Assembly: GCA_900314995.1 (NCBI GenBank)
Contig: OMXK01000001.1
Location: 62,001-126,000, forward strand
Direction of reading: 5' to 3'
DNA length: 64,000 bases
Source: an uncultured Prevotella sp.
Lineage (GTDB): Bacteria; Bacteroidota; Bacteroidia; Bacteroidales; Bacteroidaceae
Of the stretch, positions 42,811 to 51,183 are shown in pieces. Under the pieces are notes generated by a model. The model had not been told where the DNA came from. It was given only the letters and a program-made list of their open reading frames with translations, and made no database searches. A program made the translations under genes and the position numbers. Position 1 is the stretch's first letter. The number at the start of each line of letters is the position of its first letter.

Positions 42811-42833
42811 ACGGTGCAAAGGTACGAAATAAT

Positions 42834-42861
42834 TGACCATTGACCATTGACCATTGACCAT
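42834..42861. repeat. Four tandem TGACCAT heptamers upstream of recO
   Basis: TGACCAT occurs four times without gaps (42834, 42841, 42848, 42855). A degenerate inverted set (TGATCAATGGTCAATG) follows at 42911-42925. A related sequence lies inside the coding region at 62321-62350. Confidence 0.9.
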
Positions 42862-42942
42862 TTTTTAAGGGTCTTGTGGTTAAAAATAGTTAATCTCTTT
42901 AAATTTTCAATGATCAATGGTCAATGTTCGATGGAAAAGTAG

Positions 42943-43582: not shown

Positions 43583-45559
43583 ATGACAGAAGAACAACTG
43601 AACCAAGAACAGAATTATTCCGCGAGCAATATTCAGGTGCTCGAGGGTCTGGAAGCCGTACGCAAACGCCCCGCTATGTACATCGGTGACATCAGCGAGA
43701 AGGGTCTTCACCATCTGGTCAACGAGACCGTCGACAACTCTATCGACGAGGCGATGGCCGGCTATTGTACGCATATCGAAGTAACGATCAATGAAGATAA
43801 CTCTATTACTGTCCAGGACAACGGACGCGGTATCCCCGTCGATGAGCACGAGAAGATGCACAAGAGTGCCCTTGAGGTCGTGATGACGGTGCTCCATGCC
43901 GGCGGTAAGTTCGACAAGGGTTCCTATAAGGTGTCCGGTGGTCTGCACGGTGTGGGTGTCAGCTGTGTGAACGCCCTCTCTACCCACATGATGTCACAGG
44001 TATTCCGCAATGGTCATATCTACCAGCAGGAGTACGAGAAGGGTAAGCCCCTCTACGACGTGAAGATCGTCGGCGATACGGACAAGACGGGTACCCGCCA
44101 GCAGTTCTGGCCCGACGGCAGTATCTTCACGACGACGGAATTCAAGTACGACACCATCGCCAAGCGAATGCGTGAACTGGCTTATCTGAATGCCGGCATC
44201 ACCATTACCCTCACCGACTTGCGTCCTGATGAGGAAGGCAACCTGAAGCAGCCCGAGGTGTTCCACGCCAAGGACGGTCTGAAGGAGTTTGTGCGCTACG
44301 TCGATCGTCACCGCACCCACCTCTTCGACGACGTCATCTACCTGAAGACCGAGAAGCAGGGCACACCCATCGAGGTGGCCGTGATGTATAACACCGACTA
44401 CACAGAGAACATCCACTCTTACGTGAACAATATCAACACCATCGAGGGCGGTACCCACCTGATGGGCTTCCGTGCGGCTCTTACCCGTACCCTGAAGGCA
44501 TACGCCGATGCCGATCCTCAGATCTCCAAGCAGATCGAGAAGGCGAAGATCGAGATTGCAGGCGAGGACTTCCGCGAGGGTCTGACGGCAGTCATCTCCA
44601 TCAAGGTGGCAGAGCCTCAGTTCGAAGGCCAGACCAAGACCAAGCTGGGCAACTCCGAGGTGGCCGGTGCCGTTCAGCAGGCCGTAGGCGAGGCGCTGAG
44701 CAACTATCTGGAGGAGCATCCGAAGGAGGCCAAGCTCATCTGCGACAAGGTGGTGCTCGCTGCCACAGCCCGTATCGCTGCCCGCAAGGCTCGTGAGAGT
44801 GTGCAGCGCAAGAACCCGATGACGGGTGGCGGACTGCCCGGCAAACTCGCCGACTGCTCAAACAAGGATCCTAAGGAGTGCGAGATCTTCCTCGTCGAGG
44901 GTGACTCCGCAGGTGGTTCTGCCAAGCAGGGACGCGACCGTCACTTCCAGGCCATCCTGCCGCTGCGCGGTAAGATCCTGAACGTTGAGAAGGTACAGTG
45001 GCACCGCGTTTTCGAGGCCGAGTCGGTGATGAACATCATCCAGAGTATCGGCGTGCGCTTCGGTGTCGAGGGCGAAGGCGACCGCGAGGCGAATATCGAC
45101 AAGCTGCGCTACGACAAGATCATCATCATGACCGATGCCGACGTCGATGGTTCTCACATCGACACGCTGATCATGACCCTCTTCTACCGCTTCATGCCGC
45201 AGGTGATCCAGGGCGGCCACCTCTACATCGCTACCCCACCACTCTACAAGTGTACTTATAAGAAGTTCTCCGAGTACTGCTACACCGAGCAGCAGCGCCA
45301 GGCCTTCATCGACAAGTATGTGGCTGGCGACGAGAACGCTTCGGCCCTGCACACACAGCGCTACAAAGGTCTTGGTGAGATGAACCCCGAGCAGCTCTGG
45401 GAGACCACCATGAACCCCGAGAACCGCTTGCTGAAGCAGGTATCCATCGAGAATGCCGCCCAGGCCGACGAGATCTTCTCCATGCTGATGGGCGACGACG
45501 TAGAGCCCCGCCGCGAGTTCATCGAGAAGAACGCCACCTACGCCAACATCGACGCATAA
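43583..45559 (+). CDS. gyrB: DNA gyrase subunit B
   Basis: 658 residues from ATG 43583 (MTEEQLNQEQNYSASNIQVLEGLEAV). GHKL ATPase domain with RKRPAMYIGDI, NETVDNSIDEAM, DNGRGIPV and SGGLHGVGVSCVNAL. The transducer domain follows, then the TOPRIM region (EIFLVEGDSAGGSAKQGRDR, MTDADVDGSHIDTL) and the C-terminal YKGLGEMNPEQLWETTM. Length and motifs fit the short GyrB form without the proteobacterial insertion. It uses ATP to introduce negative supercoils with GyrA, which is encoded elsewhere. Confidence 0.97.
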   Translation: MTEEQLNQEQNYSASNIQVLEGLEAVRKRPAMYIGDISEKGLHHLVNETVDNSIDEAMAGYCTHIEVTINEDNSITVQDNGRGIPVDEHEKMHKSALEVVMTVLHAGGKFDKGSYKVSGGLHGVGVSCVNALSTHMMSQVFRNGHIYQQEYEKGKPLYDVKIVGDTDKTGTRQQFWPDGSIFTTTEFKYDTIAKRMRELAYLNAGITITLTDLRPDEEGNLKQPEVFHAKDGLKEFVRYVDRHRTHLFDDVIYLKTEKQGTPIEVAVMYNTDYTENIHSYVNNINTIEGGTHLMGFRAALTRTLKAYADADPQISKQIEKAKIEIAGEDFREGLTAVISIKVAEPQFEGQTKTKLGNSEVAGAVQQAVGEALSNYLEEHPKEAKLICDKVVLAATARIAARKARESVQRKNPMTGGGLPGKLADCSNKDPKECEIFLVEGDSAGGSAKQGRDRHFQAILPLRGKILNVEKVQWHRVFEAESVMNIIQSIGVRFGVEGEGDREANIDKLRYDKIIIMTDADVDGSHIDTLIMTLFYRFMPQVIQGGHLYIATPPLYKCTYKKFSEYCYTEQQRQAFIDKYVAGDENASALHTQRYKGLGEMNPEQLWETTMNPENRLLKQVSIENAAQADEIFSMLMGDDVEPRREFIEKNATYANIDA

Positions 45560-45581
45560 AACATCATCAAATACTTCTTTC

Positions 45582-45618
45582 AATCCCCGCCTGTCCTACC
45601 TCAGTTCAGACGGGGATT
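45582..45618 (+). terminator. Intrinsic terminator of gyrB
   Basis: AATCCCCG and CGGGGATT, 8-bp arms with a long loop, followed by ATCTTTT. Confidence 0.75.
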
Positions 45619-45625
45619 ATCTTTT

Positions 45626-45658
45626 AGGGCGCAAAAGTTACAATAACTTTTGCGCCCT
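45626..45658. repeat. 33-bp palindrome at the left edge of the accessory island
   Basis: AGGGCGCAAAAGTTA and TAACTTTTGCGCCCT are perfect 15-bp arms around CAA. A similar palindrome, GGGCGCAAAA/TTTTGCGCCC, is at 51251-51275. It could terminate the minus-strand gene at 45661, but its size and its partner suggest more. Confidence 0.75.
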
Positions 45659-45660
45659 TG

Positions 45661-45930
45661 CTATTTATACAAACCCACCAGCAAAATAGCTACGGGCGAT
45701 GTAGGGTGAAGGTTCGTAGTAGGCGCTGGTATTGTAATTGTCGATAACCTCGCATCAGAATGCAGGGTATCCGCAAGCGACAGTTTCTTAGCCAGTTCGT
45801 CGTGCCCCATCATATTTGCCACATATTTGTTGGGCTGCTTCAATTGGCGTGCAACCCTCTCAATCATATAGCAGACGAAATAGAGATCGTCAGTACTGAT
45901 CTGCTCTTCAGGAAAGAAAACGTTTGTCAT
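45661..45930 (-). pseudogene. Small gene with probable internal deletion and frameshift
   Basis: 89 codons. The first 55 (MTNVFFPEEQISTDDLYFVCYMIERVARQLKQ...LADTLHSD) look like a conserved Bacteroidetes family of small cytoplasmic proteins, which I cannot name. The end in this frame (TTNLHPTSPVAILL) does not look like protein. In the next frame, from the same point, the DNA reads EVIDNYNTSAYYEPSPYIARSYFAGGFV and stops at 45665-45667, which looks like a genuine C-terminus. The parent gene seems to have lost a central stretch, leaving the two ends out of frame near 45740. No -7 element is obvious upstream. Confidence 0.5.
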
Positions 45931-46077
45931 AGGCTGAAACTATTCTCAAATGTGATTGAATCTAATCACAACCACATTGCTACCATGATAAATTGATATG
46001 CTATCTGCCATTGCTACAAAATATTTCTGCAAAGATAACACTTTTTTATGTGAAATCCAAAAGAAACGTAACTTTTT

Positions 46078-48156
46078 TCATTTCAGATTAATTTCCCTCT
46101 GCACGAGGTGATACTTCTGGCAGGTGTTGGTCTTGTGGGGATTGTAGCCCAACTGATTGAGGGCACGGCCTACCTCGGAATTGATGCTCTTCGTGAGGTG
46201 GAAGTTGGGGAACAGTTGGTTGAGGATTGCCACAATCTCGTCGACGCTCAGCAGATTACTGTTGTCGTCATCAGGAGCAGGCATGAAGGTCTCCGAGATC
46301 ATCCGCTCTATGCTGCCGATACGTTCGAAATGGCGATTCTCGCTGATGATACGCTGATTATCGGCATCATCAAACCAGTAGCGCCGACCCTCTGAGATCT
46401 CAGCCACGAGCTGGGCATAGAGCTGCGGATAGTCCACAGGCGACAGATAGTCGATGGGACTTTCGACCACGACGCAGACGAACCTTCGGGAGCCCGACTT
46501 GTCGTCAGGCAGAGGACGCAGATTGTTGGTCGTGGCGATGAACGAGGCATAGCGACGTCGCTGCTCGTAAGCCTTGCCGTATGGCGGACGCATCTTCACG
46601 TCGCTCTTCGAGATCAGGTGCTTCAGCAGCGGTTGCTGACTCTTCGAGAGTGCATCGAACTCGTCGATGTTGATAAGTGCAAACGAGGTGAGTCCGAGGT
46701 TGATGGCCGTATCGTTCTTGAAATCGATCTTGTCGTTATAGTAGTCGCGCAGTTCCTCGGGCAGGATGATGCCGCAGAAGGCAGTCTTGCCACAACCCTG
46801 ATCGCCGATGAGCATCGGCACGATGGCATTGCCGTGATTGCGGTCGATGCCCTTCCAATGGGCCACCATCGAGAGCATCCAAGTGTGGAAGTCGCTGATC
46901 CAGTGCTTGTTACGGGTAACGACCCGCTGCGCCAGAGGAGTCACACGATCGACACCATCCCAGCGGGGCAACTGCTCCAGCCACTCATTCACGGGGTCGA
47001 ACTGAGGTATCATCGTCGACTCCACATAGCGCTTGATGTCCTTGTCCCACGAGTCAAGGCCGGCTTTGAGCGCACGGATCGACATGGTGTTCATCACCTC
47101 CTTTGTCAGATCACGGAAACTGTAGTCGTAACTATCCTTCGAGCGATACTGGGCCACACCCGTCATCACGTTCTTCCGAAGTTCATAGCGCGAATTAAGG
47201 AACGACTCGGTCTTATACGTCAGCAACTGCGAGGGCTTCACGTGCTTCAGCGGCCAAGTGGCTTTCAGCGTCTTGCTGTACTGCGAGTCGAACACCGTCT
47301 GCACATACTCCGCATCCTCGTTAAGCCGTCCGTCGAAAAGCGTCATCCTGACGGCAAAAGCCTCCTCGATGCCGCTCTCATGGCAATTGAACGCCAGGAC
47401 CTCCAAGCAATGGGCCACGAAATCCTCCTTCTTGTCGAGCCTGCAGGCCTCGAGGGCATCAGCCTTGCAGGCCTGATACTCATGGCGTCGTGATGCCTCT
47501 GTCGTCAGACCGGGAATCGTCTTTCCGTCGTCCTCACGCCCATCGTCGCCAAGTCTGGCGGTCTTCGTCAGCCGCTCGGCAGTATTCTCGAAAGGCGACA
47601 CGGTGATCGTAGCCGCAAAGTCGTTGAAATACACATCGGGGTCGTGGCTCAGCAGACAGCTGGAACGCAGCGTCGGCGGTATGTTATCCACTCTGACGGC
47701 CAACTGGGTAGAGTATATATAATGGTATTTGGCGTAGGCGTTACGATGGAACTGCTCAACATCCTTCAGCTCATAGCCGTCGGGATTCTGCCACATGTCG
47801 CGCTCTGCAGCCTGACTGACGATTTTCACCGATCGGCCGTCGGCCCCCACAAAGGCAATGACCGTATAGGGGATGAACCGTGCCTCGTCCCTGATCTCCT
47901 CTGCCGTCTGACGGTCAGGCAGACTGTTGATCTCCAGCAGCACGCATCCGTTGTAGACATCGGCCCACTGGTAGGGGCCCTTTGTCATCAGCATCGACGA
48001 GAAGCACACCAACGGGCGCTCCGTGAGTTCGTCGATCAGTTTGCCACTCTTGAGTTTTCCTGTACGGATCATCTCCACCACGTCGCTCATCTCGTGGCGA
48101 GTATAGCGTTCCTTTCCGTCGCGCTTGTTGATTAATGTGACTTTTGCAGTACTCAT
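46078..48156 (-). CDS. VirE-family primase/helicase-like ATPase with DUF3874 end
   Basis: 692 residues from ATG 48156 (MSTAKVTLINKRDGKERYTRHE); the longer frame crosses the promoter. Residues 1-250 form a BT4734-like N-terminal part. A VirE/PF05272-type P-loop domain follows, with GDQGCGKT at 451-458, Walker B ALINIDE near 493-499 and a sensor ATTNN. The C-terminal end (LLSVDEIVAILNQLFPNFHLTKSINSEVG...) is DUF3874-like. The layout resembles phage and plasmid primase-helicases that start replication. It stands alone, without the HU-like and amidase genes that accompany many Bacteroides VirE genes. It is convergent with the decayed gene at 45661 and has an iteron-like array upstream. Confidence 0.8.
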   Translation of the reverse strand: MSTAKVTLINKRDGKERYTRHEMSDVVEMIRTGKLKSGKLIDELTERPLVCFSSMLMTKGPYQWADVYNGCVLLEINSLPDRQTAEEIRDEARFIPYTVIAFVGADGRSVKIVSQAAERDMWQNPDGYELKDVEQFHRNAYAKYHYIYSTQLAVRVDNIPPTLRSSCLLSHDPDVYFNDFAATITVSPFENTAERLTKTARLGDDGREDDGKTIPGLTTEASRRHEYQACKADALEACRLDKKEDFVAHCLEVLAFNCHESGIEEAFAVRMTLFDGRLNEDAEYVQTVFDSQYSKTLKATWPLKHVKPSQLLTYKTESFLNSRYELRKNVMTGVAQYRSKDSYDYSFRDLTKEVMNTMSIRALKAGLDSWDKDIKRYVESTMIPQFDPVNEWLEQLPRWDGVDRVTPLAQRVVTRNKHWISDFHTWMLSMVAHWKGIDRNHGNAIVPMLIGDQGCGKTAFCGIILPEELRDYYNDKIDFKNDTAINLGLTSFALINIDEFDALSKSQQPLLKHLISKSDVKMRPPYGKAYEQRRRYASFIATTNNLRPLPDDKSGSRRFVCVVVESPIDYLSPVDYPQLYAQLVAEISEGRRYWFDDADNQRIISENRHFERIGSIERMISETFMPAPDDDNSNLLSVDEIVAILNQLFPNFHLTKSINSEVGRALNQLGYNPHKTNTCQKYHLVQREINLK

Positions 48157-48183
48157 AATTCCTGTAGTGTTTGATATCTGGTG

Positions 48184-48191
48184 CAAAGATA
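48184..48191 (-). promoter_or_regulatory. -7 element of the VirE-like gene (TATCTTTG)
   Basis: TATCTTTG on the minus strand, 28 bp upstream of the ATG at 48156. The first CTTCCAC repeat is 41 bp further upstream. Confidence 0.65.
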
Positions 48192-48228
48192 CAAAAAATT
48201 CTCCATTTGGCCAAAAATTTTTTTGCAT

Positions 48229-48605
48229 TTTGCTTCCACTTCCACTAAATCTTCTGTATCTATAGTAAATAAAGGCATTTTAAGAGGTGGAAGAGGATTA
48301 ATTTTCTTCCACTTCTCTTCCACCATTCACATTACGACAAACCCCTAATCACATTACGACTGACTGGTAGTTTCTCGTAAGGAAACCCTAAAATTCTCTC
48401 GAGAATTTATAAGTTTGCTCCCTTGCGACTACCCGTTTAGTACCTCCAAAAGAGGGGTTACCCGTAGGCAAACCCTTTCACCGCTCCCCTCAAATACCAA
48501 AACGCAAAAAGTGGAAGCAAAGTGGAAGAGAAACAATCCTCTTCCACTCGCTGAAACCATTATATATAAAGGCATTTTGAGCGTTTTAGTGGAAGTGGAA
48601 GCAAA
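48229..48605. repeat. Iteron-like array: ten CTTCCAC/GTGGAAG copies in a large inverted repeat
   Basis: CTTCCAC at 48233, 48239, 48306, 48317 and 48541; GTGGAAG at 48287, 48511, 48522, 48589 and 48595. The outer arms 48229-48249 and 48585-48605 are a perfect 21-bp inverted repeat, and the inner blocks (48287-48323 and 48511-48547) are imperfect inverted copies. AAAGGCATTTT appears once near each end as a direct repeat. The centre holds the TTACGA element and a CTCTCGAGAA palindrome. Confidence 0.85.
48354..48380. promoter_or_regulatory. TTACGA-N15-TCGTAA element, copy 2
   Basis: Half sites at 48354-48359 and 48375-48380, 15 bp apart, as at 10220-10246. A further TTACGA lies at 48332. It lies in the middle of the iteron array upstream of the VirE-like gene. 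Confidence 0.5.
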
Positions 48606-48662
48606 TTTACCTAAAGATTTTCAGAATGAAATACCGCAAGCAACTGCACACCCCATCATTTG

Positions 48663-48715
48663 TACCCTTTCGGGTATAAAATGTCTAAATAACGATTAAA
48701 TTATACCCTTTCGGG
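48663..48715. repeat. Two TACCC-TTTC-GGG hairpins
   Basis: TACCCTTTCGGGTA at 48663-48676 and TACCCTTTCGGG at 48704-48715, 41 bp apart, between the iteron array and the end of the barrel gene. Either could terminate the minus-strand barrel gene; the exact duplication of the core is notable. Confidence 0.6.
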
Positions 48716-48732
48716 GCTATTTCGTTGCAAAC

Positions 48733-49326
48733 TTAGAACACGACTCCGATGGTGGCGACGATGTTGTGAAGGTACTTATTGGTGGTTTGGGTCTCGAAGC
48801 CATACGACTTTCTCACATCGTGGAGGCCGATCTGGCCGTCGATGCCTATGCGGAAATGCCTGCCAATCTGGTACTTGATGCTGGGCTGCAGGCCGAGATA
48901 GAATTTTTTGATCTTGTCCTTGCCGTTGAGTTTGCTGGTCGGATAATCATAGTGATATTGATCGTTGGAGATGCAGAATGAGAAAACAGGGCCAAGTCCG
49001 AATGCCCATCTGCCAAGATGATACTGCGCAATGACAGGGACATCAAGGAATATGAAATCATCAGAGTCTTCCCCACACACTTCAGAACTGAAAAAGTGCT
49101 CTGTGTCCCTGCGGATATCTATCCCGGGCATCATCGACCAATGCTCAGAGAAGTAATAGTTCAGACCATAGCCCAGTTTCATGGACACACCAGTCTCACT
49201 CTCTCCCCACTCACGGTCAATCAGCAGACCGCCTGCCACATAGATGTTGTGCTCCCATTTCCTATCCTGGGAGTAACCTGTTACTGCTACCAGCAATAGC
49301 AGCGCAGAAATAATAATCTTTTTCAT
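48733..49326 (-). CDS. Outer membrane beta-barrel protein, PorT type
   Basis: 197 residues from ATG 49326 (MKKIIISALLLLVAVTGYSQ), a good signal peptide with cleavage after YSQ; a start four codons earlier is possible. Strand-turn repeats follow (VSMKLGYGLNYYFSEHWSMMPGIDIRR, DVPVIAQYHLGRWAFGLGPVFSF, FYLGLQPSIKYQIGRHFRIGIDGQIG), ending in HNIVATIGVVF. This is the PF13568-like small barrel. It has its own promoter and no gene partner. Function unknown. Confidence 0.8.
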   Translation of the reverse strand: MKKIIISALLLLVAVTGYSQDRKWEHNIYVAGGLLIDREWGESETGVSMKLGYGLNYYFSEHWSMMPGIDIRRDTEHFFSSEVCGEDSDDFIFLDVPVIAQYHLGRWAFGLGPVFSFCISNDQYHYDYPTSKLNGKDKIKKFYLGLQPSIKYQIGRHFRIGIDGQIGLHDVRKSYGFETQTTNKYLHNIVATIGVVF

Positions 49327-49368
49327 ACAAAAGTTCATATTAATAATACCTTAACTAAAAAAGTGGGG

Positions 49369-49376
49369 CAAAGATA
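49369..49376 (-). promoter_or_regulatory. -7 element of the barrel gene (TATCTTTG)
   Basis: TATCTTTG on the minus strand, 43 bp upstream of the ATG at 49326. Confidence 0.65.
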
Positions 49377-49464
49377 CAAATAATATTCCTTCCCCACAAA
49401 TGTATTCACATTCTTTATTGATCGAAAAACACCATATTTGTGCTCCCCATAATTCATTAATGTC

Positions 49465-49569
49465 TCAAATTGATATAAATCTTTCTATGATTCTAATTGG
49501 GAGGCTTTTTGCTGCAACACTCCCACTCCAGGCTGTAAAACATACAAGCATGATTAGCAATTTTCTCAT
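49465..49569 (-). CDS. 34-residue ORF with signal peptide, probably a truncated secreted protein
   Basis: Begins MRKLLIMLVCFTAWSGSVAA, a convincing signal peptide, followed by only 14 residues (KSLPIRIIERFISI) before TGA. It has a consensus TACCTTTG promoter 40 bp upstream, so it may be expressed. The mature part is too short for a known domain, and the downstream DNA is not open in any related way. Either the rest of the gene has been lost or it encodes a tiny secreted peptide. The 415-bp gap from 49327 to 49741 holds nothing else convincing. Confidence 0.4.
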   Translation of the reverse strand: MRKLLIMLVCFTAWSGSVAAKSLPIRIIERFISI

Positions 49570-51144: not shown

Positions 51145-51174
51145 TTACGACTTTTTTCGTTACGACTTTTTTCG
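51145..51174 (-). repeat. 15-bp direct repeat TTACGACTTTTTTCG in the ATPase leader
   Basis: Two perfect copies, 51145-51159 and 51160-51174, end 1 bp before the ATPase start codon and follow the promoter directly. The TTACGAC word is also in the elements at 10220 and 48354. The repeats make up almost the whole predicted 5' leader. Confidence 0.8.
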
Positions 51175-51183
51175 TAGTCGGTG

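Follow-up and report, generated by a model that had tools for sequence, protein, structure and literature searches.

A VapE-family gene and its two-armed iteron array in an uncultured Prevotella: a candidate initiator and origin-like site with dispersed gene-less copies of the array

What does a gene of the VapE/BT4734 family do in Prevotella, and what is the array of short repeated words that stands beside it? Such genes are common in the genus, with a VapE match in 41 of 60 genomes (including the one studied here), and they are usually annotated as “BT4734/BF3469 family” or “VapE domain-containing”, without an assigned job. The locus discussed here lies in a stretch of 64,000 nucleotides from an uncultured Prevotella sp. 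(contig OMXK01000001.1), which is called the window. A sequence-only reading of this DNA had proposed an initiator gene with its iterons, and had suggested an undescribed autonomous replication or transposition unit.

The arrangement of ten GTGGAAG/CTTCCAC words as a 377-bp inverted repeat with perfect 21-nt outer arms, described in that reading, was confirmed by the exact word positions (48233, 48239, 48287, 48306, 48317, 48511, 48522, 48541, 48589 and 48595) and by the complementarity of the arms. The features of the locus are as follows.

46078 to 48156, minus strand: VapE/BT4734-family gene, intact, 692 aa (Pfam, PADLOC PrimPol, PDB relative 7pds, motif alignment)
48183 to 48191, minus strand: likely promoter element TATCTTTGC of the VapE gene, from sequence
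48229 to 48605, no strand: two-armed iteron array, 377 bp, upstream of the VapE gene, with the ten words
48229 to 48249, no strand: outer left arm carrying a pair of words at 6-bp spacing, inverted repeat of the outer right arm
48287 to 48323: inner left cluster with one word at 48287 (+) and two, at 11-bp spacing, at 48306 (-) and 48317 (-)
48324 to 48510: array center, flanked by the inner arms and holding 22-bp palindromic units, with unit matches located at 48326-48342 and 48370-48386
48391 to 48408, no strand: 18-bp palindrome AAATTCTCTCGAGAATTT in the array center
48511 to 48547: inner right cluster with two words at 48511 (+) and 48522 (+) and a third at 48541 (-)
48585 to 48605, no strand: outer right arm carrying a pair of words at 6-bp spacing, inverted repeat of the outer left arm

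The outer arms, 21 nt each, are 100% complementary and the inner arms, 37 nt each with words at 11-bp spacing, 86%; the 187 bp between the inner arms contain the 18-bp palindrome and the 22-bp palindromic units. Throughout the window the word occurs 25 times; 100 dinucleotide-preserving shuffles of the same 64 kb average 8.61 occurrences (sd 2.96) and reach 20 at most, and chance clustering is ruled out by these shuffles together with the array score against control windows given below. We prefer the gene start at ATG 48156 (692 aa) over ATG 48228 (716 aa) because TATCTTTGC, which we take to be the Bacteroidetes -7 motif, lies between them; the gap from the array end to this likely -7 element is 38 bp. 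No structured RNA was matched in Rfam at E ≤0.1 across 45500-49500, and a candidate single-strand hairpin in the array center (z -1.89) was equalled by 9/200 shuffles. The seven neighboring genes scanned in the window include no integrase, relaxase, phage, satellite or defense gene. Elsewhere the window holds two perfect tandem repeats, ATTGACC in 4.4 copies at 42832-42862 and a 15-bp unit, TTACGACTTTTTTCG, in 2.1 copies at 51145-51175.

The protein has three recognizable parts.

Residues 66 to 177: degenerate AEP-like domain
Residues 393 to 608: AAA+ VapE helicase domain
Residues 616 to 683: C-terminal DUF3874-like region

Pfam matches above their cut-offs were BT4734-like_N (1.2e-25), VapE-like (1.1e-27) and DUF5906 (1e-9), and the match to DUF3874 fell under its cut-off. 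PADLOC, with the VapE protein as sole input, returned PrimPol (1.6e-23) and RT-VirE-PriCT2 (3.3e-4), and the sole sequence match in the PDB was 7pds, “Similar to D. nodosus vapE”. In an alignment of 30 VapE relatives, from which two seemingly frameshifted ones were excluded, the AAA+ motifs QGxxK[ST], N[ILV]DE[FY] and RR[FY] were present in 30/30, the glycine preceding the Walker A lysine being absent in four distant relatives (L028, L029, L051 and L053). The motifs of AEP primases are hhhDhD/E and sxH (PMC5862659); among the 30 relatives the former was found in none and the latter in one (L013), and the window VapE reads LLEIN and SVK at these positions. Since the AEP motifs are degenerate, priming by VapE is unlikely, and the N-terminal domain probably no longer serves this purpose. 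The SF3/AAA-like domain recognized from the sequence stands with its motifs intact, whereas in the primase-like domain the catalytic motifs are degenerate. AlphaFold modeled the full-length protein poorly (mean pLDDT 46.9); in residues 611-690, where block means are 55-81, the model shows helices and then two strands, an order that would fit a winged helix.

The array is not peculiar to the window. Its absence beside close homologues, which would have spoken against the earlier reading, was looked for and not found: the array is present, on the same plan, at 9/9 relatives of 70-84% identity in named Prevotella/Prevotellaceae records, and in each of them the word has drifted in concert across the array (e.g. 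to GTGGAAGAT, ATGGAAGA or GTGGAAGTGAA). By an admittedly crude array score (one 7-mer at least twice per strand, at least six in total), the threshold was reached upstream of 20/32 VapE genes vs 8/463 control windows. This contrast is conservative, because L038, a locus with its own VapE-type element, accounts for three or more of the eight hits among the controls. The upstream score was missed at 12 of the 32 genes: at L048 the array sits farther upstream, L055 ends at a contig edge, L012 and L024 reach the score downstream of the gene instead (8 and 6, respectively), L016, L026 and L053 score 4-5, and L013, L018, L028, L029 and L051 score 0. L048 is the own-genome locus C58, whose VapE appears frameshifted near its start (open frame of 624 aa, match from residue 76).

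The window's own genome has six further VapE matches (31-42% identity) that cover most of the protein, as well as a match in two pieces at C45. Two-armed arrays accompany 5/6 of these paralogs, each with a distinct word (TGACATA at C51, GTGGAGG at C43, GTGTAGAG at C58, GTAGAAAG at C56 and CTGACAC at C40), and the sixth, C63, has 22-bp repeats only. DNA similarity between the paralogous units is limited to the gene region, plus short matches in the 22-bp repeats. At C39 and C45 iterons lie also, or instead, downstream of the VapE gene (by eye). Neighboring same-strand iterons, sampled as 126 pairs from 27 arrays, are 11 bp apart in 77 pairs, 12 bp in 9 and 6 bp in 13. The closer two proteins are in sequence, the more alike are their words (Mantel r 0.80, 0/5000, n = 20) across the array-bearing loci minus L048 and L094, and the correlation is weak when the rest of the window's clade is left out (r 0.32, 94/5000, n = 12). 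The presence of the array at all nine close relatives, and a word that changes with the protein, favor the proposed pairing of an initiator gene with cognate iterons; the specificity of the pair is read from co-variation in the sequences, and VapE very probably binds the array.

The center of the array obeys another rule. At ≤2 mismatches the 22-bp unit GTTTSTCGTAAKGWAAC matches the own genome 102 times and the reversed control 3 times, and at ≤3 mismatches the unit is found in the arrays of all six VapE families, whose iterons differ. In other hosts of the window's clade GTTTSTCGTAAKGWAAC is found in 0/9 arrays and GTGGAAG-type iterons are kept; the central units of these nine arrays match GTTTACAGGCACTAAAGTC in six cases, GTTTTACGCTTCGTAAAAC in two and neither in one. 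Since the iterons persist across hosts and the 22-bp unit changes, the iterons follow the protein and the center follows the host genome. Paired 18-bp palindromes are 65 bp apart in 12/12 distinct cases with differing intervening sequence, and one additional pair is spaced by 66 bp. We infer that a second, host-wide factor may read the palindromes of the center, the 22-bp units as well as the 18-bp one.

Taken together, we hypothesize that VapE is an initiator helicase with an origin of the type known from staphylococcal pathogenicity islands (SaPI), and that its array spreads in the manner of a MITE, a reading to which we give an even chance. SaPI Rep proteins bind the iterons of their cognate origin through the C-terminal domain, and resemble SCCmec Cch2 in pairing a self-loading AAA+ helicase with short iterons beside its gene, some of these proteins also having an AEP-type primase domain (PMC7581432). 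The VapE unit likewise combines intact AAA+ helicase motifs with iteron sets beside the gene, and symmetrical, helically phased iteron arms next to a self-loading AAA+ helicase are the plan of the SaPI origin. By this analogy VapE, as a self-loading, SF3-like initiator, would bind the iterons in both arms, most likely via its C-terminal region; two hexamers would be loaded in opposite orientation, and the array center between them would be opened and copied as at SaPI Rep/ori. That the array functions as an origin is, by analogy, somewhat more probable than that it does not. The likeness has limits: SaPI origins are located downstream of rep (PMC7581432), whereas window-type arrays are mostly upstream, the primase motifs of VapE are degenerate, and gene-less arrays of the family are dispersed. 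Moreover, and unlike a SaPI, the unit stands alone, with no integrase or satellite gene among its seven window neighbors (the neighbors of the paralogs were judged by eye).

The dispersed copies are evident within the own genome, where the palindrome AAATTCTCNNGAGAATTT occurs at 22 places and the reversed control at none. Five of the 22 belong to arrays of VapE genes (C40, C51, C56, C58 and the window); the C43 array lacks an exact palindrome. Among the other 17, which are gene-less, 12 can be assigned to one of the six VapE families by three or more of its iterons: three to the C56 family, two each to C40, C51, C58 and C43 (both of the latter one-armed), and one, C34, to the window's family. 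The remaining five have iterons of none of the six, two sharing a seventh word and three consisting of the center only (by eye). In three families the alignment extends across the whole array: the window array aligns with gene-less C34 at 75% over 394 nt (window 48213-48601), the C40 array with C31 at 82% over 518 nt, and the C58 array with C51b at 88% over 541 nt; the gene-bearing arrays of C51 and C56 align partly with gene-less ones, and C43 with C49b over 48 nt only. In some copies long arms include non-iteron spacer (C81: 117 nt, 94%), and the search with the 22-bp unit gave more two-armed loci, including two that belong to the C43 and C51 families. When the seven VapE proteins were compared with the 17 gene-less loci and 20 further 22-bp-unit loci (171,611 nt), no clear VapE remnant was found, the two weak hits having E values of 0.007 and 0.059. 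Two further sets of observations concern such loci: at L241, L255, L256 and L258 and at L249 and L250, two-armed arrays with the words GGTTACA and GGGACAA surround the 22-bp unit without a known VapE of that family in this genome, and the gene-less arrays L120, L113 and L126 lie near genes read by eye as Cas9-like, HigBA and MNT nucleotidyltransferase.

The gene-less copies end in the iterons themselves, which suggests the array as the dispersal unit, as REPs are to RAYT genes, and these loci probably arose through dispersal of arrays. In two cases relatives show the site without it. At C49a, 248 bp separate the flanking matches in G292 and G269 vs 487 in the own genome; the sequence of these two relatives continues the 3' end of a putative dprA (name read from the translation), the frame of which is about 80 codons shorter in the own genome, where it stops at the outermost iteron. 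At C46 the distance is 200 bp in G119 and 104 bp in G090 vs 766 and 685 in the own genome, and G292 is likewise without the array (by eye). No target-site duplication was evident by eye at either site. A clean empty site was not found for the window unit, the right flank of which is not conserved, or for the C51b array, whose flanking genes are non-adjacent in relatives; among 286 gyrB-matching genomes, the window unit was absent within 1.5 kb after gyrB in the loci of 29 relatives (less than 1.5 kb in two loci ending at contig edges). The earlier idea of a transposition unit is supported in part, in that an array is seen dispersed, but the dispersed part comes without the gene.

These sites bear on the strongest alternative, that array and gene are the replication module of small integrated elements, satellites or plasmids, and that gene-less arrays are solo origins left by recombination between flanking arrays, like solo LTRs. 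The SaPI-like plan, the downstream iterons at C39 and C45, the downstream scores at L012 and L024, and the lack of clear VapE remnants at gene-less sites, as expected of clean loss, all agree with it. However, no array-gene-array structure was seen for full-length window-type units, the seven window neighbors include no integrase or other element gene, and in the relatives at C49a and C46 array and gene are both absent; we consider a remnant replicon unlikely.

Our preferred reading, an initiator helicase with a spreading origin-like array, would have the single VapE of each family spread or maintain the gene-less copies of that family at other intergenic sites; dependence of the dispersal on VapE falls slightly short of an even chance. 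Carried to its end, it describes a class of mobile DNA driven by an initiator helicase and not by a transposase, in which a stationary VapE gene copies its origin-like array and disperses it, along with gene-less copies in trans, via a two-layer address code, with family iterons outside and host 22-bp and fixed-geometry 18-bp palindromes inside. We put this forward tentatively, as a possibility that we regard as less likely than not. The nearest parallel is the REP/RAYT “REPtron”, in which a stationary gene has its own dispersed family of palindromic repeats (PMC3733652). RAYTs are HUH tyrosine transposases acting on about one hairpin-sized target, whereas VapE/BT4734 is an AAA+ helicase and the element here a two-armed array of 0.4-0.55 kb.

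Alternatively, the arrays could be MITEs moved by an unrelated transposase, and the VapE genes mere neighbors that adopted an array as control region. The arrays are indeed MITE-like, being short, non-coding and intergenic, with terminal inverted repeats and many gene-less copies, and there are dispersed families with the same center and no known VapE, including GGTTACA and GGGACAA. The BrickBuilt MITE of Porphyromonas gingivalis is similar in its short non-coding intergenic form, inverted ends and tandem-repeat core, the unit of which is 23 nt vs 22 bp in VapE arrays; its ends match those of the IS5 family, whereas the ends of VapE arrays are iterons that co-vary with the helicase (PMC4596501). 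This last point argues against an unrelated transposase, since the iteron family tracks the VapE lineage (Mantel) and the six VapE genes with an array each have a separate iteron family, with 12 gene-less loci within those families. We find such an origin of the arrays rather improbable. PINSR of Prevotella intermedia/nigrescens is also an abundant intergenic Prevotella repeat, but it is 188 bp long, has no terminal inverted repeats and is not reported to have an associated gene (PMC4755523).

Autoregulation, with the array as operator of VapE's own promoter and not an origin, would account for the 38 bp between array end and likely -7 element and for the upstream position in most scored cases; it leaves the gene-less copies between unrelated genes, the array-free relatives and the common center unexplained, and is in our view improbable as the sole role. 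A defense or decoy function, with VapE and its arrays detecting phage or plasmid replication proteins or trapping them, is suggested by the PADLOC matches and by the putative Cas9-like, HigBA and MNT genes near some gene-less arrays (by eye), but those matches rest on the AEP fold, the motifs of which are degenerate in the window VapE, no defense gene was recognized among the seven window neighbors, and we hold it to be highly improbable.

In the same 60 genomes the palindrome was found in 11, all of which (11/11) also have a VapE match. Arrays away from VapE matches, among the matches listed, occur in G018, G007, G025, G031, G032 and G051; with the same limit to the matches listed, G018 has an away-from-VapE array of the window's family (C220) and another with the word of its own VapE (C167). 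Six VapE genes of Bacteroides/Parabacteroides (L238, L239 and L261-L264) have tandem, locus-specific 22-bp palindromic units upstream, the best period between 15 and 35 being 22 in 6/6 regions and above all 100 shuffles. An HU-family gene adjoins four of these six loci, and clear iterons are present at L239 only.

No free circular form or free replicon was found among viral contigs and plasmid records. No VapE relative was confirmed in viral contigs, and the exact AAATTCTCTAGAGAATTT occurs in four stretches of the viral collection, of which three resemble the G038 family described below and one a GCCTACA array (by eye). Of 248 phage records with a VapE match, eight cover 80% of the query; the best 20 of the 248 are distant (25-38% identity), being human fecal scaffolds or half-query VapE helicases, and upstream repeats were looked for on phage scaffold L240 and none was found. 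A phage module is rejected on these grounds. Any match was found in 52 plasmid records, the Bacteroidales ones all at least 28 kb, and a plasmid-borne replicon is likewise rejected, the six Bacteroides/Parabacteroides records examined carrying chromosomal-looking genes.

The domain families of the window VapE are those described as BT4734-like AEP and VirE-ATPase families, and VirE (PF05272) ATPases are predicted helicases in mobile-element replication (PMC5862659); the available parts of that account describe neither iteron arrays nor dispersed copies. In the open-access papers searched, vapE, iteron and Bacteroid do not occur together and neither the palindromes nor the 22-bp unit are printed; BT4734/BF3469 has few open-access mentions, and an open-access Prevotella report with the terms iteron and inverted repeat describes no iteron-like repeats near a Rep_3 gene. 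If each VapE owns dispersed origin-like arrays, this would provide a testable function for these genes and an explanation for a class of intergenic repeats. For studies of specificity, one genome supplies six or more initiator-array pairs, each distinct from the others. Such ownership would also mean that origin-like DNA disperses without an identified transposase, and raise the question of how so many potential additional origins are tolerated in one chromosome.

In G038, 29 palindromes lie in elements with other arms, with one short VapE match in the genome, and the center is therefore not exclusive to VapE arrays. These elements (L128-L146) run from a left end TTGTTG..AAACTGACAAAAAACGG to a right end CTCTCTAGATTG..CTTTTGTC, and their center combines 22-bp palindromes of the GTCAGAAAGGCTTTCTGAC type with the 18-bp palindrome of the window array; boundaries are sharp in an alignment of 19/29 copies. 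In G024 a larger element with another VapE subfamily is present in four copies (L038-L041), which for the most part share 88-95% identity across several kb.
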